In this document: piece after piece, positions 27,074 to 38,418 of the stretch
Position numbering within the stretch: the stretch's first letter is position 1
Layout: each line of letters begins with the position of its first letter
Assembly (NCBI RefSeq): GCF_029626225.1
Contig: NZ_JARUBP010000001.1
Coordinates: 6,076,001-6,140,000 of the forward strand
Reading direction: 5' to 3'
Length of the DNA stretch: 64,000 nucleotides
Source: Asanoa sp. WMMD1127
GTDB taxonomy: Bacteria > Actinomycetota > Actinomycetes > Mycobacteriales > Micromonosporaceae
Program-made: the position numbers and the translations under genes
Notes under the pieces: model-generated
Database searches by the model: none
Told to the model about the DNA's origin: nothing
What the model saw: the letters and a program-made list of their open reading frames with translations, nothing else

Positions 27074-27699
27074 GCTGGACCGCGTACGGATCGTTCGTCG
27101 TGTTCGCGATCGTCCTCATCGCCATCCCGGGCGCCGACTTCGCGGTGACGGTGCGCAGCACCCTCGTCGGCGGCCGGCGCCAGGGCCGATGGAGCGCCGC
27201 CGGCATCGCCTCGTCCAACGTGGTCCAGGGCCTGCTCGCGGTGGCGGGCCTCGGCGCCGTCGTCGTGCACGTCGAGCCGCTCTTCCAGGCGATCAAGTGG
27301 GCGGGCATCGGCTACCTGCTCTACCTGGCGGCGCAGTCGTTCCGCTCCGCCTGGCGCGGCGACTACGCCTCCCTCGACGCCGCTGCCGGCGACCGCACCG
27401 GCACGGCCTGGACCGGTTGGCGGCAGGGCTTCCTGTCCAACATCACCAACCCGAAGGTCCTGGTCTTCTACCTGGCGGTGCTGCCGCAGTTCCTGGGCCC
27501 GGGCACACCGGTCGCGGTGCTGGTGCTGTTCGCCCTGACCCACGCGGCTCTCGGCCTGCTCTGGTCGCTGCTCGTCGTGGCCGCCCTGCACCGGGTGCGC
27601 CGCGTTCTCCGCCGCCGCACGGTCCGCCGCACGCTCGACGCCGCCACCGGCACGGCCCTGACCGCCTTCGGCGCCCGCCTCGCAGCCGAGAGCGCCTGA
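27070..27699 (+). CDS. Second LysE family exporter
   Basis: A 209-residue integral membrane protein with six probable spans. IPGADFAVTVRSTLVGGRR near residue 18 and NITNPKVLVFYLAVLPQF near 124 mark the LysE/RhtB family; the usual PGP is PGA here. The C-terminal stretch is basic (RVRRVLRRRTVRR). The ATG overlaps the preceding stop (ATGA), so it is last in the metallo-hydrolase operon. Substrate not deducible. Confidence 0.86.
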   Translation: MSWTAYGSFVVFAIVLIAIPGADFAVTVRSTLVGGRRQGRWSAAGIASSNVVQGLLAVAGLGAVVVHVEPLFQAIKWAGIGYLLYLAAQSFRSAWRGDYASLDAAAGDRTGTAWTGWRQGFLSNITNPKVLVFYLAVLPQFLGPGTPVAVLVLFALTHAALGLLWSLLVVAALHRVRRVLRRRTVRRTLDAATGTALTAFGARLAAESA

Positions 27700-28001
27700 C
27701 GTCCTTAGTGGACACTCAGCCACCCGCGTAAGGTGCGGGGAGCGTCCTATGTGCGTACCGCCGGATGCTTGTGATCAGGAACCGCCCTACTTTTGCTGCC
27801 ATAGATAAAAGTCTGCTCAAGCTGATCGAAAGCTGTGGACATGTTGAAGATCAGCGATTAGGGTCGGTCGCACACCACGTTGTTTCGTCGATGTAAACGG
27901 CTCGCGAGCGGTGCACCTCGCGCGTCGTTTCACACGCCCACGTCCCCGACCCCCAGGCATCGCCGACCCGTTCCACCAGGGTCAGCGAGGTCTGCCTTGC
28001 C
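27700..28001 (+). promoter_or_regulatory. Non-coding region upstream of the secreted oxidative cluster
   Basis: About 300 bases without a convincing gene and with more A/T than its surroundings. Two inverted repeats are visible: ACTTTT (27789-27794) with AAAAGT (27807-27812), and CTGATC (27822-27827) with GATCAG (27849-27854). No clear sigma-70 or iron-box promoter is seen. It most likely contains the promoter and operators of the three-gene cluster that follows. Confidence 0.45.
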
Positions 28002-31000
28002 ATGTCATCCGTCGGTCGACTTGCGGAAGGTATGCCGGACATGCCCATTGTTTCCAGGCGAAGGCGCCTGCTCTCGAGACTCGGACACGGCCGGTTCGCC
28101 CGGCCCACGTCCGCGTTCGCGGCCGTCACCGTCATGCTGGCCAGCGTCGTGCTGGCCGGGGTCCTGTCGGGCACGCGCCCGGCCGGGGCCGAGCCACCGG
28201 CGGACGGCGGCGCCGCCGCCCCGCAGCAGCTACAGGCCCAGGTGCTCACCTGGACGGCCGGGGACAGCTTCACCGCGTACGCCTCGGTGCCCGGCTCCGC
28301 CGTCGCGGGCCCGACCACCATCGTCTTCGAGAACAGCGCCGCCACCGGCAACACCACCGGGATGCAGCACACGCTGACCTTCGACACCGGCGACCCGCGC
28401 TACAACAACGACGTCAACGTCAACATCATCGCCGACCCCAACGACGCCAACGGGGGCCGGCACACCGTCGACGTGACGCTGACGCCGGGCACCTACCGCT
28501 TCTTCTGCGCGATCCCCGGGCACGGCCAGATGACCGGCCTGCTCACCGTCACCGGCGGCGAGGGCGACACCACCGCCCCCGAGGTGACCGCGCAGGTCGC
28601 GGGCGAGCGCGACGGCGACGGCAACTACGTCGGCGCGGCCACCGTCACCCTGAACGCGACCGACGCCGGCTCGGGCGTCGCGCGCGTCGAGTACGCCCTG
28701 GACGGGGGCCCGTTCGGCACCTACTCGGCGCCCGTCACCGTCAACGGCCCGGGCGCGCACACCGTGCAATATCGCGCGACCGACGTCGCCGGCAACACCT
28801 CGGAGATCGGGTCCACGCAGTTCACGGTCGTCGAAGGCCAGGAGGAGGACACCACCGCGCCGACCGTCACGGCCGCGGTCGGCGGCGACCAGGACGAGAA
28901 CGGCGCCTACGTCGGCGCGGCCACCGTCACGGTGACCGCCACCGACACCGAGTCGGGCGTCGCCAGCGTGGAGTATTCGCTGGACGGCGGGGCCTACGCG
29001 GCCTACACCGCGCCGGTCACCGTCAACGAGGCCGGCGCGCACACCGTCACCTTCCGCGCGACCGACGGGGCCGGCAACACGTCCAACCCGCAGTCGGTCG
29101 CCTTCACGGTGGTCGACGCCGCGGACCCCGACGAGACCGCGCCCGAGGTGACCGCCACGGTCGCCGGCGAGCAGAACGAGCAGGGCGCCTACGTCGGCAC
29201 GGCCACCGTCACGGTGGCCGCCACCGACGCCGACTCCGGCGTGGCCACGGTGGAGTACTCGCTCGACGGCGCTCCGTACGCCGCCTACAGCGACCCGGTC
29301 GCGGTCACCCAGCCCGGCGCGCACACGTTCAGCGCCCGCGCCACCGACGAGGCCGGCAACACCTCCGAGCCCGAGACGGTGCAGTTCACCGTCGCCGACG
29401 CCGGTGGCGGCGACACCACCGCGCCGACCGTCACCGCGGCGGTCGACGGCGACCAGAACGAGCAGGGCGCCTACCTGGGCAGCGCGACCGTCACCGTCAC
29501 CGCGACCGACACGGAGTCGGGTGTGGAGACGGTGGAGTACGCGGTCGACGGTGGGGCGTGGGTCGCCTACACCGCGCCGGTCACGGTCAACACGACCGGC
29601 GCGCACACGGTCACCTTCCGGGCGACCGACGAGGCGGGCAACACCTCCGAGCCGGGCAGCGCGCAGTTCACGGTCGTGGACGCGCCCGACCCCGACAACA
29701 CCGCGCCGACCGCGACCGCCACGGTGGCCGGCAACCGCGACAACGCCGGCGCGTACGTCGGGGCCGCCACGGTCACCGTCAGCGCCACCGACGCCGACTC
29801 GGGCGTGGCCACGGTCGAGTACTCGATCGACGGCGCCCCGTACGCGGCCTACACCGCACCGGTCACCGTCAACCAGCCGGGCGCCCACACGGTGAGCTAC
29901 CGGGCGACGGACAACGCCGGCAACACCTCGGCGCCGGGGACCGTGCAGTTCACCGTGGTCGCGGCCAACGACGACACCACGCCGCCAACCGTCAACGCCG
30001 CCATCAGCGGCCAGCTCAACAGCGGCTGGGCGTACGTCGGCAGCGCGACCGTCACGCTCACCGCGAGCGACAGCGGCTCCGGCCTGATGCGCGTCGAGTA
30101 CGCCCTGGACGGCCGCGGCTACCTGGTCTACACCGGGCCGGTCACGGTCAACACCCCGGGCGCGCACACGTTCACCTACCGGGCCACCGACCGGGCCGGC
30201 AACGTCAGCACCACCGCCTCGACCACGTTCACCGTGGTGGAGAGCGCGCCGCCGGCGCCGACCTGCGAGGTCGCCGACAACCGGGTCACGGTCTGGATGG
30301 GCACCCACGACACGGGCGTGGCCAACCGGGTGATCGAGGGCGGCTGCAGCATCAACGACCTGGTGCTCGACGAGTCGCCGTGGCCCAGCGCCGCCGACTT
30401 CGTCGCGCACGTCACGGCGCTGGCCGACCGCTGGCACCAGCGCTCGCTGATCCCGCTGAAGGATCGCAACGGCCTGGTCCGCGGCGCCCGCGAGTCCAAT
30501 GTGGGCAGGGCCGAGTCCGTGCAGGGCTACGCGCCGCTGCTGGACGCCAAGGCCGCCTCGTTCCGGCTCTGGGAGCAGGTCGGCGCCGGCGGTTTCCGCC
30601 GCAACGCCGACGGCTCGATCACCAGCAGGCCGGAGGACGGCCTCGGCATGCTCTGGTTCCCGGTCCGCACCTACGGCGACTTCTCGCTCAAGCTCCAGTG
30701 GCGCGACGACGCCCCGGGTGAGGCGCGGGTCAACAGCGGTGTCTTCGTCCGCTTCCCGCAGGTGCACCAGCACCCGCAGGAGCCGCGGCCGGAGTGGGTG
30801 GCCATCAAATACGGCCACGAGCTGCAGATCTTCGACAGCCCGACCGGCGACCAGTACAAGAGCGGCTCGGTCTACGGCTTCGACCGGGTCGACCTGGCCG
30901 ACGCCGGCGTGCGGGACAAGGGCGTCTGGAACGACTACGAGATCCGCGTGGTCGGCCAGCACTACTCGATCTTCCGCAACGGCAAGCTGATCAACCAGTT

Positions 31001-31157
31001 CACCAACGCGCCCGGCCTCACGTTCGACCCGCCGCGGGCCGACGACCCGGGCACCGACGGGCGGCAGCACGCCGAGGGCTACATCGGCCTGCAGAACCAC
31101 GGCGCCACGGACACGGTCAGCTTCCGCAACATCCGCATCGCCCCGCTGACCCCGTAA
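28002..31157 (+). CDS. Secreted cupredoxin / six-repeat / DUF1080 protein
   Basis: A 1,051-residue exported protein. A signal peptide ends near residue 63 (RPAGA). Residues about 75-186 form a plastocyanin-like domain: His in MQHTLTF and FFCAIPGHGQMTG supply the His, Cys, His and Met ligands of a type 1 copper site. Six repeats of about 94 residues follow (190-750), each with TAPxVTA, GAYVGxATVTV, SGVxxVEYxxDG and RATDxAGNTS, the OmpL47/Ig-like pattern. Then come a Cys-containing module (755-812, GGCSINDLVLDE) and a DUF1080 domain (833-1051). ATG 28041, ten bases after GGAAGG, is an alternative start. It heads a probable operon with the oxidase and ThuA proteins. Confidence 0.86.
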   Translation: MSSVGRLAEGMPDMPIVSRRRRLLSRLGHGRFARPTSAFAAVTVMLASVVLAGVLSGTRPAGAEPPADGGAAAPQQLQAQVLTWTAGDSFTAYASVPGSAVAGPTTIVFENSAATGNTTGMQHTLTFDTGDPRYNNDVNVNIIADPNDANGGRHTVDVTLTPGTYRFFCAIPGHGQMTGLLTVTGGEGDTTAPEVTAQVAGERDGDGNYVGAATVTLNATDAGSGVARVEYALDGGPFGTYSAPVTVNGPGAHTVQYRATDVAGNTSEIGSTQFTVVEGQEEDTTAPTVTAAVGGDQDENGAYVGAATVTVTATDTESGVASVEYSLDGGAYAAYTAPVTVNEAGAHTVTFRATDGAGNTSNPQSVAFTVVDAADPDETAPEVTATVAGEQNEQGAYVGTATVTVAATDADSGVATVEYSLDGAPYAAYSDPVAVTQPGAHTFSARATDEAGNTSEPETVQFTVADAGGGDTTAPTVTAAVDGDQNEQGAYLGSATVTVTATDTESGVETVEYAVDGGAWVAYTAPVTVNTTGAHTVTFRATDEAGNTSEPGSAQFTVVDAPDPDNTAPTATATVAGNRDNAGAYVGAATVTVSATDADSGVATVEYSIDGAPYAAYTAPVTVNQPGAHTVSYRATDNAGNTSAPGTVQFTVVAANDDTTPPTVNAAISGQLNSGWAYVGSATVTLTASDSGSGLMRVEYALDGRGYLVYTGPVTVNTPGAHTFTYRATDRAGNVSTTASTTFTVVESAPPAPTCEVADNRVTVWMGTHDTGVANRVIEGGCSINDLVLDESPWPSAADFVAHVTALADRWHQRSLIPLKDRNGLVRGARESNVGRAESVQGYAPLLDAKAASFRLWEQVGAGGFRRNADGSITSRPEDGLGMLWFPVRTYGDFSLKLQWRDDAPGEARVNSGVFVRFPQVHQHPQEPRPEWVAIKYGHELQIFDSPTGDQYKSGSVYGFDRVDLADAGVRDKGVWNDYEIRVVGQHYSIFRNGKLINQFTNAPGLTFDPPRADDPGTDGRQHAEGYIGLQNHGATDTVSFRNIRIAPLTP
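28566..30251 (+). repeat. Six tandem 282-bp in-frame repeats
   Basis: Repeat units begin at 28566, 28848, 29130, 29412, 29694 and 29973. Five spacings are 282, 282, 282, 282 and 279 bases. All encode the same Ig-like domain with strongly conserved sequence, so they arose by duplication inside the gene. Confidence 0.9.
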
Positions 31158-31172
31158 GCAAAGGACAGACCA

Positions 31173-32363
31173 GTGGAGAAGGAAACCTCACGCCTGGGAT
31201 CGGCGGGCGGGCCGCGCATGCTGGCCATCGCGATCCTCGCCGTGACCCTGGTCGGTGCGGGAGTCCTCCGGTTCGGCGGCCAGCAGGCCGCCGCGCCGGG
31301 GGCGCCCGCCGAGGCCCCGGCCGTGGCCGCCGAGAAGGCGGCGCTCGCGGCCCTGGCGCCGGGCGACCGCCCGGAGGGTTGCATCCAGCCGGACCGACGG
31401 ATCCAGCTGTACGCGGTCGAGCTGCCCAAGGACGGCACGCAGGTCCGGCTCGGCTACGGCCTGACGCCGGAGACGGCCTCGTACCCGGGTCCCCTGATCG
31501 AGATGATCGAGGGGGAGTGCCTGGCGATCACGCTGCACAACCAGATCCCGGAAGCGACGCTCGCCGCGCTGCGGACCGAGCCGAACCATCCGCTGGGCGT
31601 GTCGCTGCACACCCACGGCGTGAAATACACGCCGACCTCCGACGGCACCGTCCACACCGACTCGTGGGTTCCGCCGGGCGGCCAGCGCACCTACATCTGG
31701 TTCGCCAAGCCCCGCAACGCGACCACCGGGGCCCAGGGCACGGCCGGCTACTGGTGGTACCACGACCACATGGTCGGCGGCGCCCACGGCACGCGCGGTC
31801 AGGGCGCCGGCCTCTTCGGCGGGCTGGTCGTGCGGCGCCAGGGGGACCTGCGGCCGCACCGCACCTATGTCACGGCCTTCGGTGACCTCCAGTCGATCAA
31901 CCTGCGCCGCGGCGCGGCCACCGACACCTGTGACCCGGCCAACCCGGTGCCCGGCCCGACCTGCCTGGTCGCCAAGCCCGGCGAGCGGGTCGAGTTCGTG
32001 GTCATCGGCATGGGCAACGACATGCACACCTTCCATTTGCACGGCCACTCCTGGGCGGACACCCGCACCGGGACGGTCGACGGCACCAACCGGGCGCTCG
32101 TCGACTCGGTGCCGGTCATCGACAACAAGACCCTCGGCCCCGGCGACTCGTTCGGTGTGACGGTCGTCGCCGGCGACTCGGTCGGCCCCGGCAACTGGAT
32201 GCTGCACTGCCACATGCAGTTCCACTCCGACCTGGGCATGGCCACGATGCTGCACGTCCTCAACCCCGACGGCACGCTTCCGTCGCACGCCCACGACCAC
32301 GCGCCGGCGGCGGCCGCGGGCGCGCCGGCGGCACACGCCGGCCACCAGGCGAGCTCGAAGTGA
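31173..32363 (+). CDS. Two-domain multicopper oxidase
   Basis: A 396-residue exported oxidase with an N-terminal membrane/signal segment (LAIAILAVTLVGAGVLRF). Copper motifs are LHTHG and WWYHDHM in domain one, HTFHLHGHSW and HCHMQFHSDLGM in domain two; the last contains the type 1 Cys. The set is complete for a type 1 site plus a trinuclear centre, as in small laccases. It oxidises a donor while reducing oxygen to water. A His-rich tail (HAHDHAP, HAGHQ) may bind copper. GTG 31173 follows AAAGGA. It lies 15 bases after the cupredoxin gene and 29 bases before the ThuA protein. Confidence 0.9.
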   Translation: MEKETSRLGSAGGPRMLAIAILAVTLVGAGVLRFGGQQAAAPGAPAEAPAVAAEKAALAALAPGDRPEGCIQPDRRIQLYAVELPKDGTQVRLGYGLTPETASYPGPLIEMIEGECLAITLHNQIPEATLAALRTEPNHPLGVSLHTHGVKYTPTSDGTVHTDSWVPPGGQRTYIWFAKPRNATTGAQGTAGYWWYHDHMVGGAHGTRGQGAGLFGGLVVRRQGDLRPHRTYVTAFGDLQSINLRRGAATDTCDPANPVPGPTCLVAKPGERVEFVVIGMGNDMHTFHLHGHSWADTRTGTVDGTNRALVDSVPVIDNKTLGPGDSFGVTVVAGDSVGPGNWMLHCHMQFHSDLGMATMLHVLNPDGTLPSHAHDHAPAAAAGAPAAHAGHQASSK

Positions 32364-32392
32364 CCACCCGAGAGCCCCACGAAGGAGCAGGA

Positions 32393-35300
32393 ATGGCACA
32401 CCGAAAGCGGCCGACGCTACGCCGCGCGATCGCGCTGGCGTCGGCGGCCGTGCTCACGCTCGGCATCATGACCGGCCCGGGATCGCCGCCGGCCTCCGCC
32501 GCGGCGCCGACCTGGGGCGCCAACGCGGTCAACGTGCTCGTCTTCCACGGCCCGGTGGACCAGCAGAGCGACCCGGTCACCAAGGCCGTGGCCGCGGTGC
32601 GCAGGCTCGGCACGGAGAACGGCTTCACCGTGCGGGTGTCCAGCAACCCGGCCGACTTCAACCGCGACAACCTCGCCAGGTACCGCGGCGTGGTCTTCCT
32701 GTCGGCCAACGGCGTCACGCTCGACGACGCACAGGAGGCCGCGTTCCAGGCGTACGTCAAGGGTGGTGGCGGGTTCGTCGGCGTCCACGACGCGGCCCGC
32801 GCGCAGCCCACCTCGGAGTGGTTCACCGGGCTGGTCGGCAGCCGGCCGGCGCCGAGCCTGCCCAACGCCGAGAAGGTCGTCGAGTCGGCGGCCAGCGGCC
32901 AGAACCCGCCCAACGAGACCGTCGCCAACCTGTTCGACGGCCGCACCGGCACCAAGTGGCTCACGTTCGCCACCACCGGCTGGGCCCAGGGCAAGCTCGC
33001 CGCCCCGACGGTGATCAACCGGTACGCGCTGACCTCGGCCAACGACTTCGCCGGCCGGGACCCCAAGAACTGGAAGCTGCAGGGCTCGGCCGACGGGCAG
33101 AGCTGGACCGATCTGGACACCCGCACCAACGAGGTGTTCCAGCAGCGCTTCCAGACCCGGCAGTTCTCGTTCGAGAACACCACCGCCTACCAGTACTACC
33201 GGCTCGACGTCTCCGCGAACAGCGGTGAGCCGATCATCCAGCTCGCCGAGCTGTTCCTGATCGGCCCGGACGCCGGCCCGCCGCCGGAGGCCAACGTGCA
33301 GCGGGCGACCGTCAGTGTCGTCGACCGGCAGCACCCGGCCAACGACGGCCTGCCGCTGACCTGGACCCGGGAAGACCAGTGGATCAACTGGGACCCGAAC
33401 CCGATCGGCAACGTGCACACCGTCGCCCAGGTGCAGGAGCACACCTACAACGCGGGCCTGTCCGGCAACGGCGCGTTCCACCCGATCTCGTGGTGCCGCG
33501 ACTACGACGGCGGCCGCTCCTTCTACACGGGCATGGGGCGCACCGACGCCAGCTACACCACCGACACGAAGTTCCTCGGCCACCTGCTCGGCGCGATCAA
33601 GTGGACCGCCGGCCTCGTCCGTGGTGACTGCCAGGCGACGATCGCGTCGAACTACAAGGTCGAGCGGCTGACCGCGGTCAACCAGCCCGGCCAGCTCGAC
33701 CAGATCGGTGAGCCGCACGGCCTGACCATCGCCCCCGACGGCACCGTGTTCTACATCGGCAAGGCGGCCTGCCCGTCCGGTCCGATCGTGGACTGGAACG
33801 ACCCCAACGTCGGCAAGGGCTGCGGCACGATCCATTCCTTCGACCCGCGTACGAAGCAGGTCAAGCTCCTCACCACGCTCGAGGTGATGGGCAACCGGGG
33901 CAGCGGCAGCGAGCTCGTCAAGAACGAGGAAGGTCTGGTCGGTCTCACGCTCGACCCGAACTTCGCCGAGAACGGCTGGGTCTACGCCTACTGGATGCCG
34001 CACGCGTCGATCGACCGCGAGAAGCGGATCGGCCAGCGCACCGTGTCGCGGTTCACCTACGACAAGGCCGCCCAGACGATCGACCAGGCCACCCGCAAGG
34101 ACCTGCTGCACTGGGACACCCAGATCCACAGCTGCTGCCACGCCGGCGGCGGCATGACCTTCGACGAGTCCGGCAACCTCTACATCGGATCCGGCGACAG
34201 CAACTCGTCCGGCGGCTCCGACGGCTACTCCGGCAACAACTGGACCCAGGAGTACGCCGGCACGTCGTTCCAGGACGCGCGGCGCACCGCCGGTAACACC
34301 AACGACCTGAACGGCAAGATCATCCGGATCCACCCCGAGGCGGACGGCACCTACACGATCCCCGAGGGCAACCTGTTCACCGGCCAGGAGGGCGGTGGCG
34401 GCAAGGCCCGCCCGGAGATCTACGTGATGGGCGTGCGCAACATCGCCCGCATCGCCTGGGACCCGGTCAACGACTGGCTCACCGCCGCGTGGGTCGGCCC
34501 GGACGCCGGCGCGCCCAGCCCGGAGCTCGGCCCGGCCAAGTACGAGACGGCGACCATCATCACGCAGGCCGGCAACCACGGCTGGCCGTACTGCATGGGC
34601 AACCGGCAGCCGTACCGGGACCGCAGCAACACCGACGCGACCCAGCTCACCGGGTGGTACGACTGCGACAACCCGAAGAACGAGTCGCCCCGCAACACCG
34701 GTCTGGTCAACCTGCCGCCGGTCCGCGACAACATGATCTGGTACTCGCCCCAGGGCGGTGGCCCGGTCTTCCCGAAGCGGGCGGACGGCAGCGGGATCCC
34801 GACCTACGTGCAGTCGGAGACCACCTACACCCAGCCCTACCTCAGCGGCGGCGGTCAGGCCATCATGGACGGTCCGACCTACCACCGGAAGAACGTCGAC
34901 GTGAACAGCGGCGTGGCGTGGCCGGCGTACTGGGACAACAAGTGGTTCATCGGTGACCAGTCCAACGCCAACAACCGCGTGGCCATCACGGTCAACCCGG
35001 AGACGGCGCGGGAGGCCGGCGCCCCGGCGTTCGCCGAGGACCTCCGCCGGATCATCCCCGGCGGCACCAACCCGCAGACCCAGCTGCAGTCCTGGATGGA
35101 CGCCAAGTTCGGCCCGGACGGCGCGCTCTACATGCTGGACTACGCGGGCGGCTTCTTCAGCCTGCACAACAACCAGAAGCTGATCCGGATCACCTACAAC
35201 GGTGGCCAGGCGACCCCGAACCCGGGTCTGGCCACGGCGGTCTCGGCGACCCCGACGACGCCGCGCACCATCGAGTTCTCCAGCAACCGGGTCGGCGGCG

Positions 35301-36361
35301 TCGCCTGGCAGTGGGACTTCGGCGACGGCACCGCGGGCTCCACCGCGCCGCACCCGAAGCACACCTACCGGCGCTACGGCACGTTCACCGCGAAACTGAA
35401 GGTGACGTACGCCGACGGTGAGGTCGTCGAGTCGTCGATCCCGGTCACCGCCGGGTGTGTGGCGGCCGACGCCCGGCCCACGGTCTATTTCCTCGAGACC
35501 GACAGCGGGGTGGCCAACCGGCAGGTGGGCGGCGGCTGCACGATCAACGACCTGATCGACGACGAGACGACCTGGCCCAACCGCGGCGCCTTCGCCGACC
35601 ACCTCGAGACGGTGATCGCGGAGCTCACGGCGGCCCACGTCATCGACAACCGGGAGGCCGGCACGCTGCGGCGCACCGGCACCCAGTCGCCGATCGGCGC
35701 CACCAACGGCTACCAGACGATCTTCAACGGCTCGGCGTACTCGCTGGCCGGCTGGCGTCAGGCGCCCGGTGGCTCCTTCGGGCTGCGGCCCGACGGGTCG
35801 ATCCGCAGCAGCGGCGGCCTGGGCATGCTGTGGTACGCCGACCAGGAGTTCGCGGACTACTCGATCAAGCTGCAGTTCAAGGACATCTCACCGGACGCCG
35901 TCCGGGCCAACAGCGGTGTGTTCGTGCGGTTCCCGGACCCGCGTACCCCGCTGGAGCAGCGTCCGCCGGGCAGCTGCGGCACGGTCGGGTCGGCGCGTTC
36001 CTCGCAGGCCTGGGTCGCGATCTTCTGCGGACACGAGATCCAGATCTACGACGGTGAGACGGGCGAGCCCCAGAAGACCGGGTCGGTCTACAACTTCGAC
36101 CCGAACAACCTCGCCCAGTCCGGCGCCACGGCCAAGGGCGTCTGGAACGACTACGAGATCCGCGTGGTCGGCCAGCACTACACGATGATCCGCAACGGCG
36201 TGGTGATCAACGAGTTCGACAACACGCCGGGCAAGCAGTCGTCGCGCGCGGGCGACCCGCCGACCGACCTGCGGCAGTTCATCAGCGGTTTCGTCGGGTT
36301 GCAGAACCACGGCAACAACGACGTGATCGAGATCCGCAACGTGCGGGTCCGCACCTACTGA
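32393..36361 (+). CDS. Secreted ThuA / discoidin / sugar dehydrogenase / PKD / DUF1080 protein
   Basis: A 1,322-residue exported protein. ATG 32393 follows GAAGGAG; signal cleavage is near residue 36 (ASAAAP). Residues 42-155 and 302-413 are the two halves of a ThuA-like glutamine-amidotransferase fold (NVLVFHG, GGGGFVGVHDA; later VDRQHPAND, RTDASY). A discoidin (F5/8 C) domain is inserted at about 162-291. A glucose/sorbosone dehydrogenase propeller runs about 423-936 (EPHGLTIAPDG, EGLVGLTLDPNF, GVRNIARIAWDP), then PKD (949-1021, WDFGDGTA), a GGCTINDLIDDE module, and DUF1080 (1107-1322). It probably binds and oxidises or cleaves polymeric glycosides outside the cell. Confidence 0.88.
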   Translation: MAHRKRPTLRRAIALASAAVLTLGIMTGPGSPPASAAAPTWGANAVNVLVFHGPVDQQSDPVTKAVAAVRRLGTENGFTVRVSSNPADFNRDNLARYRGVVFLSANGVTLDDAQEAAFQAYVKGGGGFVGVHDAARAQPTSEWFTGLVGSRPAPSLPNAEKVVESAASGQNPPNETVANLFDGRTGTKWLTFATTGWAQGKLAAPTVINRYALTSANDFAGRDPKNWKLQGSADGQSWTDLDTRTNEVFQQRFQTRQFSFENTTAYQYYRLDVSANSGEPIIQLAELFLIGPDAGPPPEANVQRATVSVVDRQHPANDGLPLTWTREDQWINWDPNPIGNVHTVAQVQEHTYNAGLSGNGAFHPISWCRDYDGGRSFYTGMGRTDASYTTDTKFLGHLLGAIKWTAGLVRGDCQATIASNYKVERLTAVNQPGQLDQIGEPHGLTIAPDGTVFYIGKAACPSGPIVDWNDPNVGKGCGTIHSFDPRTKQVKLLTTLEVMGNRGSGSELVKNEEGLVGLTLDPNFAENGWVYAYWMPHASIDREKRIGQRTVSRFTYDKAAQTIDQATRKDLLHWDTQIHSCCHAGGGMTFDESGNLYIGSGDSNSSGGSDGYSGNNWTQEYAGTSFQDARRTAGNTNDLNGKIIRIHPEADGTYTIPEGNLFTGQEGGGGKARPEIYVMGVRNIARIAWDPVNDWLTAAWVGPDAGAPSPELGPAKYETATIITQAGNHGWPYCMGNRQPYRDRSNTDATQLTGWYDCDNPKNESPRNTGLVNLPPVRDNMIWYSPQGGGPVFPKRADGSGIPTYVQSETTYTQPYLSGGGQAIMDGPTYHRKNVDVNSGVAWPAYWDNKWFIGDQSNANNRVAITVNPETAREAGAPAFAEDLRRIIPGGTNPQTQLQSWMDAKFGPDGALYMLDYAGGFFSLHNNQKLIRITYNGGQATPNPGLATAVSATPTTPRTIEFSSNRVGGVAWQWDFGDGTAGSTAPHPKHTYRRYGTFTAKLKVTYADGEVVESSIPVTAGCVAADARPTVYFLETDSGVANRQVGGGCTINDLIDDETTWPNRGAFADHLETVIAELTAAHVIDNREAGTLRRTGTQSPIGATNGYQTIFNGSAYSLAGWRQAPGGSFGLRPDGSIRSSGGLGMLWYADQEFADYSIKLQFKDISPDAVRANSGVFVRFPDPRTPLEQRPPGSCGTVGSARSSQAWVAIFCGHEIQIYDGETGEPQKTGSVYNFDPNNLAQSGATAKGVWNDYEIRVVGQHYTMIRNGVVINEFDNTPGKQSSRAGDPPTDLRQFISGFVGLQNHGNNDVIEIRNVRVRTY

Positions 36362-36370
36362 TCCAACCCG

Positions 36371-36405
36371 ATGACCGGGTACGGGCGGCGCCCGTACCCG
36401 GTCAT
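36371..36405. terminator. Bidirectional terminator with perfect 16-bp stem
   Basis: ATGACCGGGTACGGGC (36371-36386) pairs perfectly with GCCCGTACCCGGTCAT (36390-36405) around a three-base loop. It lies between the convergent ThuA protein and anmK genes; the anmK stop codon is inside the right arm. Confidence 0.8.
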
Positions 36406-37535
36406 TCCATTGTCAGCCGGCGCGGCAGCGTGGCCAGCGGGGTCGGGAGCCGCAGCGCCTCGGCGCCCGGGGTGATCGCGCCGACCACCCGCGGCCCGCG
36501 GGCCCCGGTGGCGGCCGGCACCGCGCCGGGCAGGCCGTGCCAGGTGAGCCAGCCGATCAGCGCGAACAGCACCGCCTCCTTGGCGTCGGCGGGCAGCCCG
36601 ACCTCCTCGGAGCGGACGAGCGTGACACCGGGCGCGTGGGCGGCGAGCCGGGCGAGCAGCGTGCGGTTGTGCACGCCGCCGCCGGAGAGCAACAGGTGGT
36701 CGAGGCGGTGCCGGCGCACCTCGTCGGCCACCGTCACCGCGGTCAGCTCGGTCAGCGTGGCCAGCAGGTCGGCCGGGGGATAGCCGCCGGCCCCCTCGAG
36801 GTAGGCCGCCGAGAACAGCTCCTTGCCCGTCGACTTCGGCGGCGTACGCGCGTAGTAGGGCTCGACCAGCAACCGGTCCAGCAACTCGGTCCGGACCGTG
36901 CCGCCGGCCGCCAGCGCGCCGCCGCGGTCGTAGGGCTCCCCGGTCACCGCCAGCGCGGCGGCGTCGACCAGCGCGTTGCCCGGCCCGGTGTCGTAGGCGC
37001 ACACCTCGCCCGGCACCGCGACCGTCAGGTTGGCGATGCCGCCCAGGTTGACCGCGCCCCACCGCCCCGCGCGGCCGGCGAGCAGCATCAGGTCGAGCAC
37101 GGGCACCAGCGGCGCGCCCTGCCCGCCGGCGGCGACGTCGCGGATCCGGACGTCGGCGACCACCGGCAGCCCGGTCCGCTCCGCGATCCAGGCCGGCTGC
37201 CCGAGCTGGAGGGTGCCGTCGGTGGCGGCGTGGAACAGCGTCTGCCCGTGCGAGCAGACCAGGTCGGCGGCCCCGGCCGCGTCCAGCGCCGCGGTCGCCG
37301 CGCCGGCGAACGCCTGACCGAGCCGCGTGTCCAGCGCGCACACGTCGCCGAGCCGGACCTTCCCGGGCGGCAGCGCCTTGCGGATGGCGGCGCGCACCGC
37401 CGGCTCGTACGCCGTGGTGGCGTGGTGCAGCAGCCGCGCCCGCAGCTCGTCGCCGCCGGGCGTCGCGGTGAACGACACCAGGGCCGCGTCGATGCCGTCG
37501 TGCGAGGTGCCGGAGCTCAGGCCGAGGACGCGCAT
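36402..37535 (-). CDS. anmK: Anhydro-N-acetylmuramic acid kinase
   Basis: A 377-residue ASKHA-fold kinase that converts 1,6-anhydro-MurNAc to MurNAc-6-phosphate in cell-wall recycling. Motifs are [17 protein letters not shown] at the N-terminus (phosphate loop), [32 protein letters not shown] and [13 protein letters not shown] near the C-terminus, in family order. Length is usual. It starts at ATG 37535 and stands alone on the minus strand, ending within the strong shared terminator. Confidence 0.95.
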
Positions 37536-37596
37536 CGATCCACCCTGGGCCAGTCGTGGGCTGCGCGTCAATGCGTGGGCGGCGCAGAATGACGCC

Positions 37597-38418
37597 ATGA
37601 CCGAGACGCAGCGGTACGCGCTGGCCGGCATGTCCGTCGTCGAGCGCGACCTGGTGGCGAGAGCCGACGCGCGGCAGCTCCGCCGGGTGGCCCGCGGCCG
37701 GGTGCTCGAGCAGCAGCCGGCCGGCACGCCGCCCGCGGGCGAGGCCGGGCAACGCCGGCTGGCCCGGTTGCGCGAGTTCCACGGCGGCACGGTCGAACGG
37801 GCCCGGGCGCCCCGCCCGGCGCCGGTCGCGCTCGGCACCGTGGCGACGCCGCCCTACGAGTTCGAGTGGACGTGGAGCCACGCGGTCAACGACACGCGCG
37901 TCGACGCGCTGACGGCCGCCCGGGCCGACGGCGCCTGCGAGCTGACCGGCATCGCGACCGGCGAGACCGGCGACGCCACGCTGAGCCTGCGGGCGGCCGT
38001 GGGCCTGGCCGTGCGGCCGGGCGTCGACGGGCTGCTGACCCTGGCCGCGGCGCCGGCGCTGAGCTGGCGCTGGATGACCCTGGTCAACCTGCAGGACGGC
38101 GCGAGCGCCGGGTTCACCGGTTTCGTCGTGCAGCGGTTCCGGGTCGCCGACAACGCCTTCGAGGGCACCGAGGTCCAGCAGATCGGGCCCTACCTGTGGA
38201 GCGAGAACTCCTGGTGGGGCGGGGCCAACGGGGAGGCGACGACCGACGCGCACCCGCTCGCCGCGACGATCCCGGTCAGTGCCGCACACTGGTACGCGGT
38301 CTGGGTCTGGTGCGGCACGATCGCCGACGCGGGTCACGACTTCGGCATCTTCTGGTGGGCCAGCGCCCGCTCGTCGCTCGCGCTGCGCCTGCCCTATGTG
38401 GCCTGGAACGTCGCCTGA
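37597..38418 (+). CDS. Hypothetical protein, Trp-rich beta C-terminal domain
   Basis: A 273-residue protein without a signal peptide. Residues 1-85 are charged and helical ([20 protein letters not shown]), a Pro-rich bridge follows ([10 protein letters not shown]), and residues 90-273 are beta-rich with many Trp ([43 protein letters not shown]). I do not recognise the family. The end overlaps the convergent GVxG-repeat gene by 25 bases. A binding or structural role is guesswork. Confidence 0.62.

Follow-up and report, generated by a model that had tools for sequence, protein, structure and literature searches.

A conserved actinobacterial locus joining a SLAC-type laccase to a cupredoxin, a sugar-dehydrogenase propeller and putative keto-glycoside enzymes

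Glycosides can be broken down by oxidation followed by elimination and hydration, as in the GlycDH/AtOGE/AtHYD pathway of Agrobacterium tumefaciens and the BT2157 group of Bacteroides thetaiotaomicron, where the oxidant is a Gfo/Idh/MocA or a flavin dehydrogenase. Other sugar oxidants are the soluble pyrroloquinoline quinone (PQQ) dehydrogenases, β-propellers of the GSDH family (PF07995) such as sGDH (1cq1) and the Streptomyces coelicolor enzyme ADH (3das). Copper nitrite reductases form trimers of two-domain chains, and the cupredoxin that feeds them is either fused or a protein of its own. The two-domain laccase SLAC of Streptomyces has been viewed as an oxidase that acts by itself on phenols and other substrates (PMC3918160). 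It has long been studied for dyes and lignin, and its own job is unsettled in the literature consulted. Here we analyze a window of 64,000 nucleotides from the 8 Mb genome of Asanoa sp. WMMD1127, in which three adjacent genes on the + strand (P1, P2 and P3, positions 28002-36361) bring together a cupredoxin, a SLAC-type laccase, a GSDH propeller, a ThuA domain and two DUF1080 domains.

The locus and its conservation

The three open reading frames abut. P1 (1051 residues, 28002..31157) is separated by 15 bases from P2 (396 residues, 31173..32363), which overlaps P3 (1333 residues, 32360..36361) by 4 bases. P1 opens with a cupredoxin domain (28236..28559; Pfam PF00127, Copper-bind, 9.3e-5) whose ligands are a His and C-x4-H-x2-M. 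It continues with OmpL47-type, Ig-like repeats, a putative spacer or surface stalk (28569..30236; NCBIfam NF047446 in six stretches, outer limits approximate), and a module that we call linkC (30237..30530), and ends with a DUF1080 domain (3keto-disac_hyd, 30531..31139, 3.6e-32). P2 is a two-domain multicopper oxidase of the SLAC type (Cu-oxidase_2, 7e-16; Cu-oxidase_3, 1.2e-10). P3 carries a ThuA domain (32522..33607, start approximate; 2.1e-56) with an inserted, NedA-like F5/8 type C domain (about 32891-33253), followed by the GSDH propeller (33635..35191; 3.7e-21), a PKD domain (35240..35428), a second linkC (35450..35707) and a second DUF1080 (35708..36352; 2.4e-31). P1 and P3 appear to be exported, as judged from their N-termini by eye rather than with a signal-peptide program. 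The reading frames and Pfam matches bear out the original prediction, made from the letters of this DNA, which had placed a cupredoxin, a two-domain oxidase, a ThuA domain, a propeller and two DUF1080 domains in three adjacent genes; it had missed the F5/8 type C insert, the PKD domain, the six repeat stretches and linkC. Its author knew of no described system of exactly this composition, and among the papers listed in our literature searches we found no description joining these parts and none combining ThuA with DUF1080.

The locus most likely encodes a secreted pathway that oxidizes, eliminates and hydrates. We give about even chances to a fuller version, in which an exported machine would break glycosides in this way, with the cupredoxin relaying the electrons to the laccase and thence to O2. 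The P3 propeller would oxidize a sugar hydroxyl of the glycoside, most likely the one at C3, and so produce a ketone. Cleavage of the bond activated in this way, by elimination, and the addition of water would fall to the DUF1080 domains in P3 and P1, joined in many Micromonospora by a TIM-barrel enzyme with a twin-arginine (Tat) motif, and ThuA would probably handle the keto-sugar. Electrons from the propeller would reach the laccase P2 through the type-1 copper site in the cupredoxin of P1, and P2 would reduce O2 to water; SLAC would be the oxidase of this chain in Streptomyces. The OmpL47-type repeats, PKD, F5/8 type C and linkC modules would anchor the parts to the substrate or the cell surface. 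If this is true, glycoside breakdown by oxidation and elimination can run extracellularly on oxygen, without NAD.

The genes are tightly linked. A genome scan based on P2 gave 44 loci, and 32 of them hold close relatives of the cupredoxin, DUF1080, GSDH and ThuA. The remaining 12 comprise five short or cut loci (L029, L032, L033, L042 and L046), four distant matches covering about 90-100 residues at 30-36% identity (L058-L061) and three true exceptions (L044, L051 and L055). In Planosporangium (L051, 7239-10986), ThuA, a 229-residue protein of unknown type, the laccase and DUF1080 are separate neighboring genes, and neither a close GSDH nor a cupredoxin was found at the locus. In a metagenome-assembled genome of Actinomycetota (L055, 7251-11640), a laccase 50% identical to P2 has Copper-bind proteins on both sides (1.9e-8 and 3.1e-4), with none of the sugar parts at the locus; laccase and cupredoxin therefore also pair by themselves. 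One of these flanking proteins also carries a right-handed β-helix.

We then counted genes in two sets of genomes, where loci were not chosen by synteny. Among 101 Micromonosporaceae genomes (cut-offs of 1e-120 for the propeller and 1e-50 for the laccase), 38 have the propeller and 37 the laccase: 37 have both, 63 neither, none the laccase only, and a single genome, which is 69% complete, the propeller only. In all 37 the two genes share a contig and a strand and are no more than 5.1 kb apart, although in one genome (G493) the best propeller copy is on another contig and it is the second copy that neighbors the laccase. The second set holds 199 genomes that we label Streptomyces on the basis of their SLAC-like laccase (cut-offs of 1e-60 for the laccase and 1e-120 for the propeller). 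The laccase occurs in 124 of them, the propeller in 120, both in 117, the propeller only in 3 and neither in 72, and every one of the 117 pairs is adjacent and divergent. Fisher tests (p = 7e-27 in Micromonosporaceae, 8e-42 in the Streptomyces group) are descriptive, as related genomes are not independent. The counts support treating the three genes as a single conserved system, in line with the original prediction. Starting from the propeller leads to the same association: of 296 Actinomycetota genomes, 15 have a match at 1e-30 and 6 a close one (>600 bits), with cupredoxin and laccase as neighbors in each of the 6. The more distant matches listed are 35-50% identical, and in 24 loci of such distant propellers (L068-L091, with short flanks) neither a cupredoxin nor a laccase of the kind described here was seen.

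Gene order varies with lineage: P1-P2-P3, as in the window; P3-P1-TIM-P2 (L048); P3-P1-P2 in Nocardioides (L054); and, in Streptomyces, SLAC divergent from P3-P1. The typical Micromonosporaceae locus has DUF1080 on both P1 and P3, Nocardioides (L054) on P3 only, and five Streptomyces loci (L092-L096) on P1, the propeller frames there being too short to include it. The Streptomyces ThuA in L092 reads, by eye, without the F5/8 type C insert. Elsewhere in the host genome, a GSDH protein lies beside a ThuA-DUF1080 protein carrying F5/8 type C domains (L099, 5618-10739), and another beside a ThuA-DUF1080 protein with CBM6 and ricin-type lectin domains (L100, 5293-10293). GSDH, ThuA and DUF1080 are thus linked beyond this operon.

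The length of a reading frame is by itself weak evidence in high-GC DNA; the frames are nonetheless kept in relatives, including four other Asanoa loci (L018-L021), where P2 is 81-89% identical. A scan for sigma-70 promoters over 27600-36700 found none and terminators were near chance, so the operon structure is read from spacing only. Convergent to P3 lies an anhydro-N-acetylmuramic acid kinase gene (36402-37838, - strand). We rejected it as a part of the system, because a relative stands 3' of P3 only in the same four Asanoa loci and in 0 of the 40 others.

The copper proteins and SLAC

P2 keeps Tyr108 and all 12 copper ligands of SLAC (type 1: H231, C288, H293 and M298; type 2/type 3: H102, H104, H156, H158, H234, H236, H287 and H289; PMC3918160), and matches 9ix9 and 3t9w at 1.2e-65 or better. 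Laccases of this type are homotrimers whose type 2/type 3 sites lie between monomers. The P1 cupredoxin keeps its ligands as well, which supports the two copper proteins of the original prediction. Among relatives, the type-1 pattern H...CxxxxHxxM is present in 44 of 44 cupredoxin matches, some genomes being counted twice. The nearest solved structures are auracyanin A (2aan), whose loop is one residue longer, the copper nitrite reductase chain 6tfd (2.4e-4) and plastocyanin. A host-wide search for further cupredoxins missed P1 itself, and hence says nothing on others. Those two-domain laccases that have been studied show potentials of 0.35-0.45 V (PMC8236229), which makes a blue copper donor plausible.

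The laccase linked to the propeller in the Streptomyces group is, by its sequence, SLAC. Among the loci compared, that of L116 is 98.2% identical to S. coelicolor SLAC, and in its genome (G423) the propeller is 1 kb away. The laccase of L092 matches 3cg8, which we take to be S. coelicolor SLAC, at 1.7e-188. In 25 of 30 loci (L104-L133, the best matches of the laccase search and not a random draw), SLAC is followed on its own strand, within 1.4 kb, by a gene for a regulator of the LacI family, which comes closest to RbsR models but stays below their cut-offs. Such a gene is also present in three of the five wider loci (L092-L096), in one case at a distance of 4.4 kb. These associations suggest a natural job for a well-studied enzyme, as the laccase of an extracellular sugar-oxidizing system of soil actinobacteria. 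We put forward only tentatively the more specific idea of a copper-wired chain that oxidizes glycosides outside the cell and has SLAC or one of its relatives as terminal oxidase. It would start at a propeller that does not bind PQQ in the canonical manner and has another cofactor site, built around the Cys-Cys-His. The strict partnership of SLAC with a propeller, a cupredoxin and a keto-glycoside enzyme makes its role directly testable.

The same copper proteins could serve other ends. If cupredoxin and oxidase shielded the envelope from Cu(I), the sugar domains would be incidental. The copper-resistance oxidase model TIGR01480 does match P2, but far under its cut-off (31 vs 479 bits), while the close family of P2 is SLAC and the regulator beside SLAC is of the LacI type, not a copper sensor. 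This explanation is very improbable, and copper resistance, which had the weak TIGR01480 match as its only sign, was rejected as a role.

Processing of aryl-glycosides or lignin-carbohydrate material without a wired chain deserves more weight, even if we hold it to be rather unlikely. The sugar domains would free phenolic aglycones, the laccase would oxidize the phenols, the cupredoxin would be an accessory, and the propeller would act outside the cell as a dehydrogenase, returning quinones or phenoxy radicals to the reduced state. Such re-reduction has been proposed for cellobiose dehydrogenase and for AA12 enzymes, and the P3 propeller has AA12 structures among its fold matches. The laccase SilA of S. 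ipomoeae is presumably of the SLAC type. Its mutant solubilized less lignin and showed 40% less respiration on straw (PMC5675413), a phenotype that can be explained by phenol-centered activity as well as by the oxidize-eliminate-hydrate pathway, and SLAC-type laccases do oxidize phenols (PMC8236229, PMC3918160). What this explanation leaves without a reason is the retention of the type-1 ligands in all cupredoxin matches and the cupredoxin genes that flank a laccase in the absence of sugar genes (L055). Moreover, no phenol-specific gene was recognized among the few neighbors scanned.

The sugar-processing domains and the propeller cofactor

The linkC-DUF1080 portion of P3 was modeled with a mean pLDDT (predicted local distance difference test) of 89.6. 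Foldseek matched this model to BT2157 (3osd), 8tda, 8rr2 and 9fbe (E values from 2.7e-12 to 9.6e-12), with lectins as weaker matches. The second of these is a 3-keto-2-hydroxy-glucal hydratase and the last two are 3-keto-glycoside eliminase/hydratases. Our DUF1080 alignment (A2, 20 sequences) shows no variation at five residues, E196, Q198, D201, W232 and N249. The original prediction had taken DUF1080 for a 3-keto-disaccharide hydrolase; the 3-keto assignment agrees with the solved structures, and the domains are probably better read as eliminase/hydratases. The preceding linkC, our own name for the module of about 85 residues that stands before DUF1080 in P1 and P3, matched no Pfam family. 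It has the pattern ...NR...C.INDLI.DE..W..., is predicted with confidence to form short strands plus helices, and is weakly matched by end segments of GSDH-type proteins (L075 and L076).

A full AP_endonuc_2 TIM-barrel gene stands between P1 and P2 in 18 of the 44 loci, and all 18 copies carry the Tat twin-arginine motif. Its nearest solved structures are 8tcd, 8tcs and 8tct and, more weakly (3.7e-6), 8bvk, the β-eliminase AtOGE (PMC10628242). This recurrent gene, to judge from its relatives, fits 3-keto chemistry. Two Micromonospora loci have short TIM-barrel matches only, which may be remnants (L033, 1931-2035; L040, 8678-8818), and the step seems to be lost at times.

Several observations weigh against the proposed mechanism. 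One true exception of the P2 scan (L044) is a laccase without any partner gene, 7 of the 199 genomes of the Streptomyces group have a laccase but lack the propeller, and the LacI gene is absent in 5 of the 30 loci and in 2 of the 5 wider ones. The passage of electrons from propeller to cupredoxin to laccase is our inference, and the sequence gives no evidence of transfer. Two-domain laccases oxidize phenols directly (PMC8236229), so P2 may not need a protein donor. On the side of the chemistry, the DUF1080 family also holds the endo-xanthanase/lichenase THTE_1561 (cited in PMC9007349). We found no relative of the TIM barrel in the 64 kb window or in the four other Asanoa loci, and no Gfo/Idh/MocA gene in the window (the genome has 25 matches elsewhere). 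The other points concern the cofactor and activity of the propeller.

The propeller passes the curated cut-off of PF07995 (76.2 bits vs 25), and its model (predicted template modeling score, pTM, of 0.89) has soluble PQQ glucose dehydrogenases as best matches in the PDB. In a sequence alignment (A1, not a superposition of structures) of 18 propellers, from the close group and distant paralogues, the catalytic His and an Arg-Asn pair, residues with recognized roles in GSDH enzymes, are invariant. This His is the counterpart, in the alignment, of the residue that serves canonical GSDHs as catalytic base, and all 18 have Cys-Cys directly before it (Cys-Cys-His at 34133..34141 in P3). In canonical enzymes, the two Arg of the GRLR motif clamp the PQQ carboxylates. 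Here the first is lost in 14 of 18 sequences and the second is replaced in all 18 (Met in 16, Ile in 1 and His in 1), while both are kept in the three canonical paralogues of the host, one of which is clearly related to S. coelicolor 3das. The host also has no PqqE over the cut-off, PqqE being the only gene of its kind sought and 8 of the 296 genomes being positive as a control; one of the six close-propeller genomes does have it (G161, G161:C7:309090-310112). The lost second Arg, the Cys-Cys-His and the lack of PqqE over the cut-off in the host make PQQ doubtful as the cofactor. The PQQ use assumed in the original prediction is accordingly weakened, and we rejected PQQ as a settled cofactor. 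It could still be scavenged from outside the host. The propeller may even be inactive, like the related HHIP propellers among its fold matches. Given the missing Arg and the Cys-Cys-His, the nature of the cofactor is a testable question.

The HHIP propeller is not an enzyme, and it is conceivable, though improbable, that binding is the main function of the propeller and of the DUF1080 domains. The large proteins would then merely hold the laccase on the cell wall or a polysaccharide, and the laccase would act alone in development or pigmentation. The substituted GRLR motif, the weaker lectin matches of DUF1080 and the many Ig-like, PKD and F5/8 type C modules would suit such a role. It would not account for the invariance of the catalytic His and Arg-Asn pair in every propeller aligned, for that of the five DUF1080 residues, or for the sugar-lyase-related TIM barrel that joins the operon in 18 loci.

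Comparison with known systems

Taken as a secreted oxidize-eliminate-hydrate pathway, the locus resembles several described systems in part. It shares with the A. tumefaciens and B. thetaiotaomicron pathways the DUF1080 fold of 3-keto-glycoside eliminase/hydratases and, in many Micromonospora, a TIM barrel weakly related to AtOGE. It differs from them in that the oxidant would be a propeller with cupredoxin and laccase, and in that the Micromonospora-type TIM barrel carries a Tat motif and has no relative in the window.

Among two-domain laccases, P2 belongs to the same family as SLAC, with the same copper ligands and Tyr108, but has an N-terminal hydrophobic segment and, by eye, no evident Tat motif. 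The P3 propeller has the fold, the catalytic His and the Arg-Asn pair of soluble PQQ sugar dehydrogenases, from which it is set apart by the Cys-Cys before the His, the altered GRLR motif, the fusion to ThuA and a host without PqqE over the cut-off. The copper nitrite reductase chain 6tfd was retrieved by the cupredoxin profile; here, in contrast, the cupredoxin is on a separate protein and the oxidase has the ligands of a trinuclear O2 site. The keto-glycoside chemistry proposed for this locus is of a known kind; its proposed oxidant, export and copper wiring differ.

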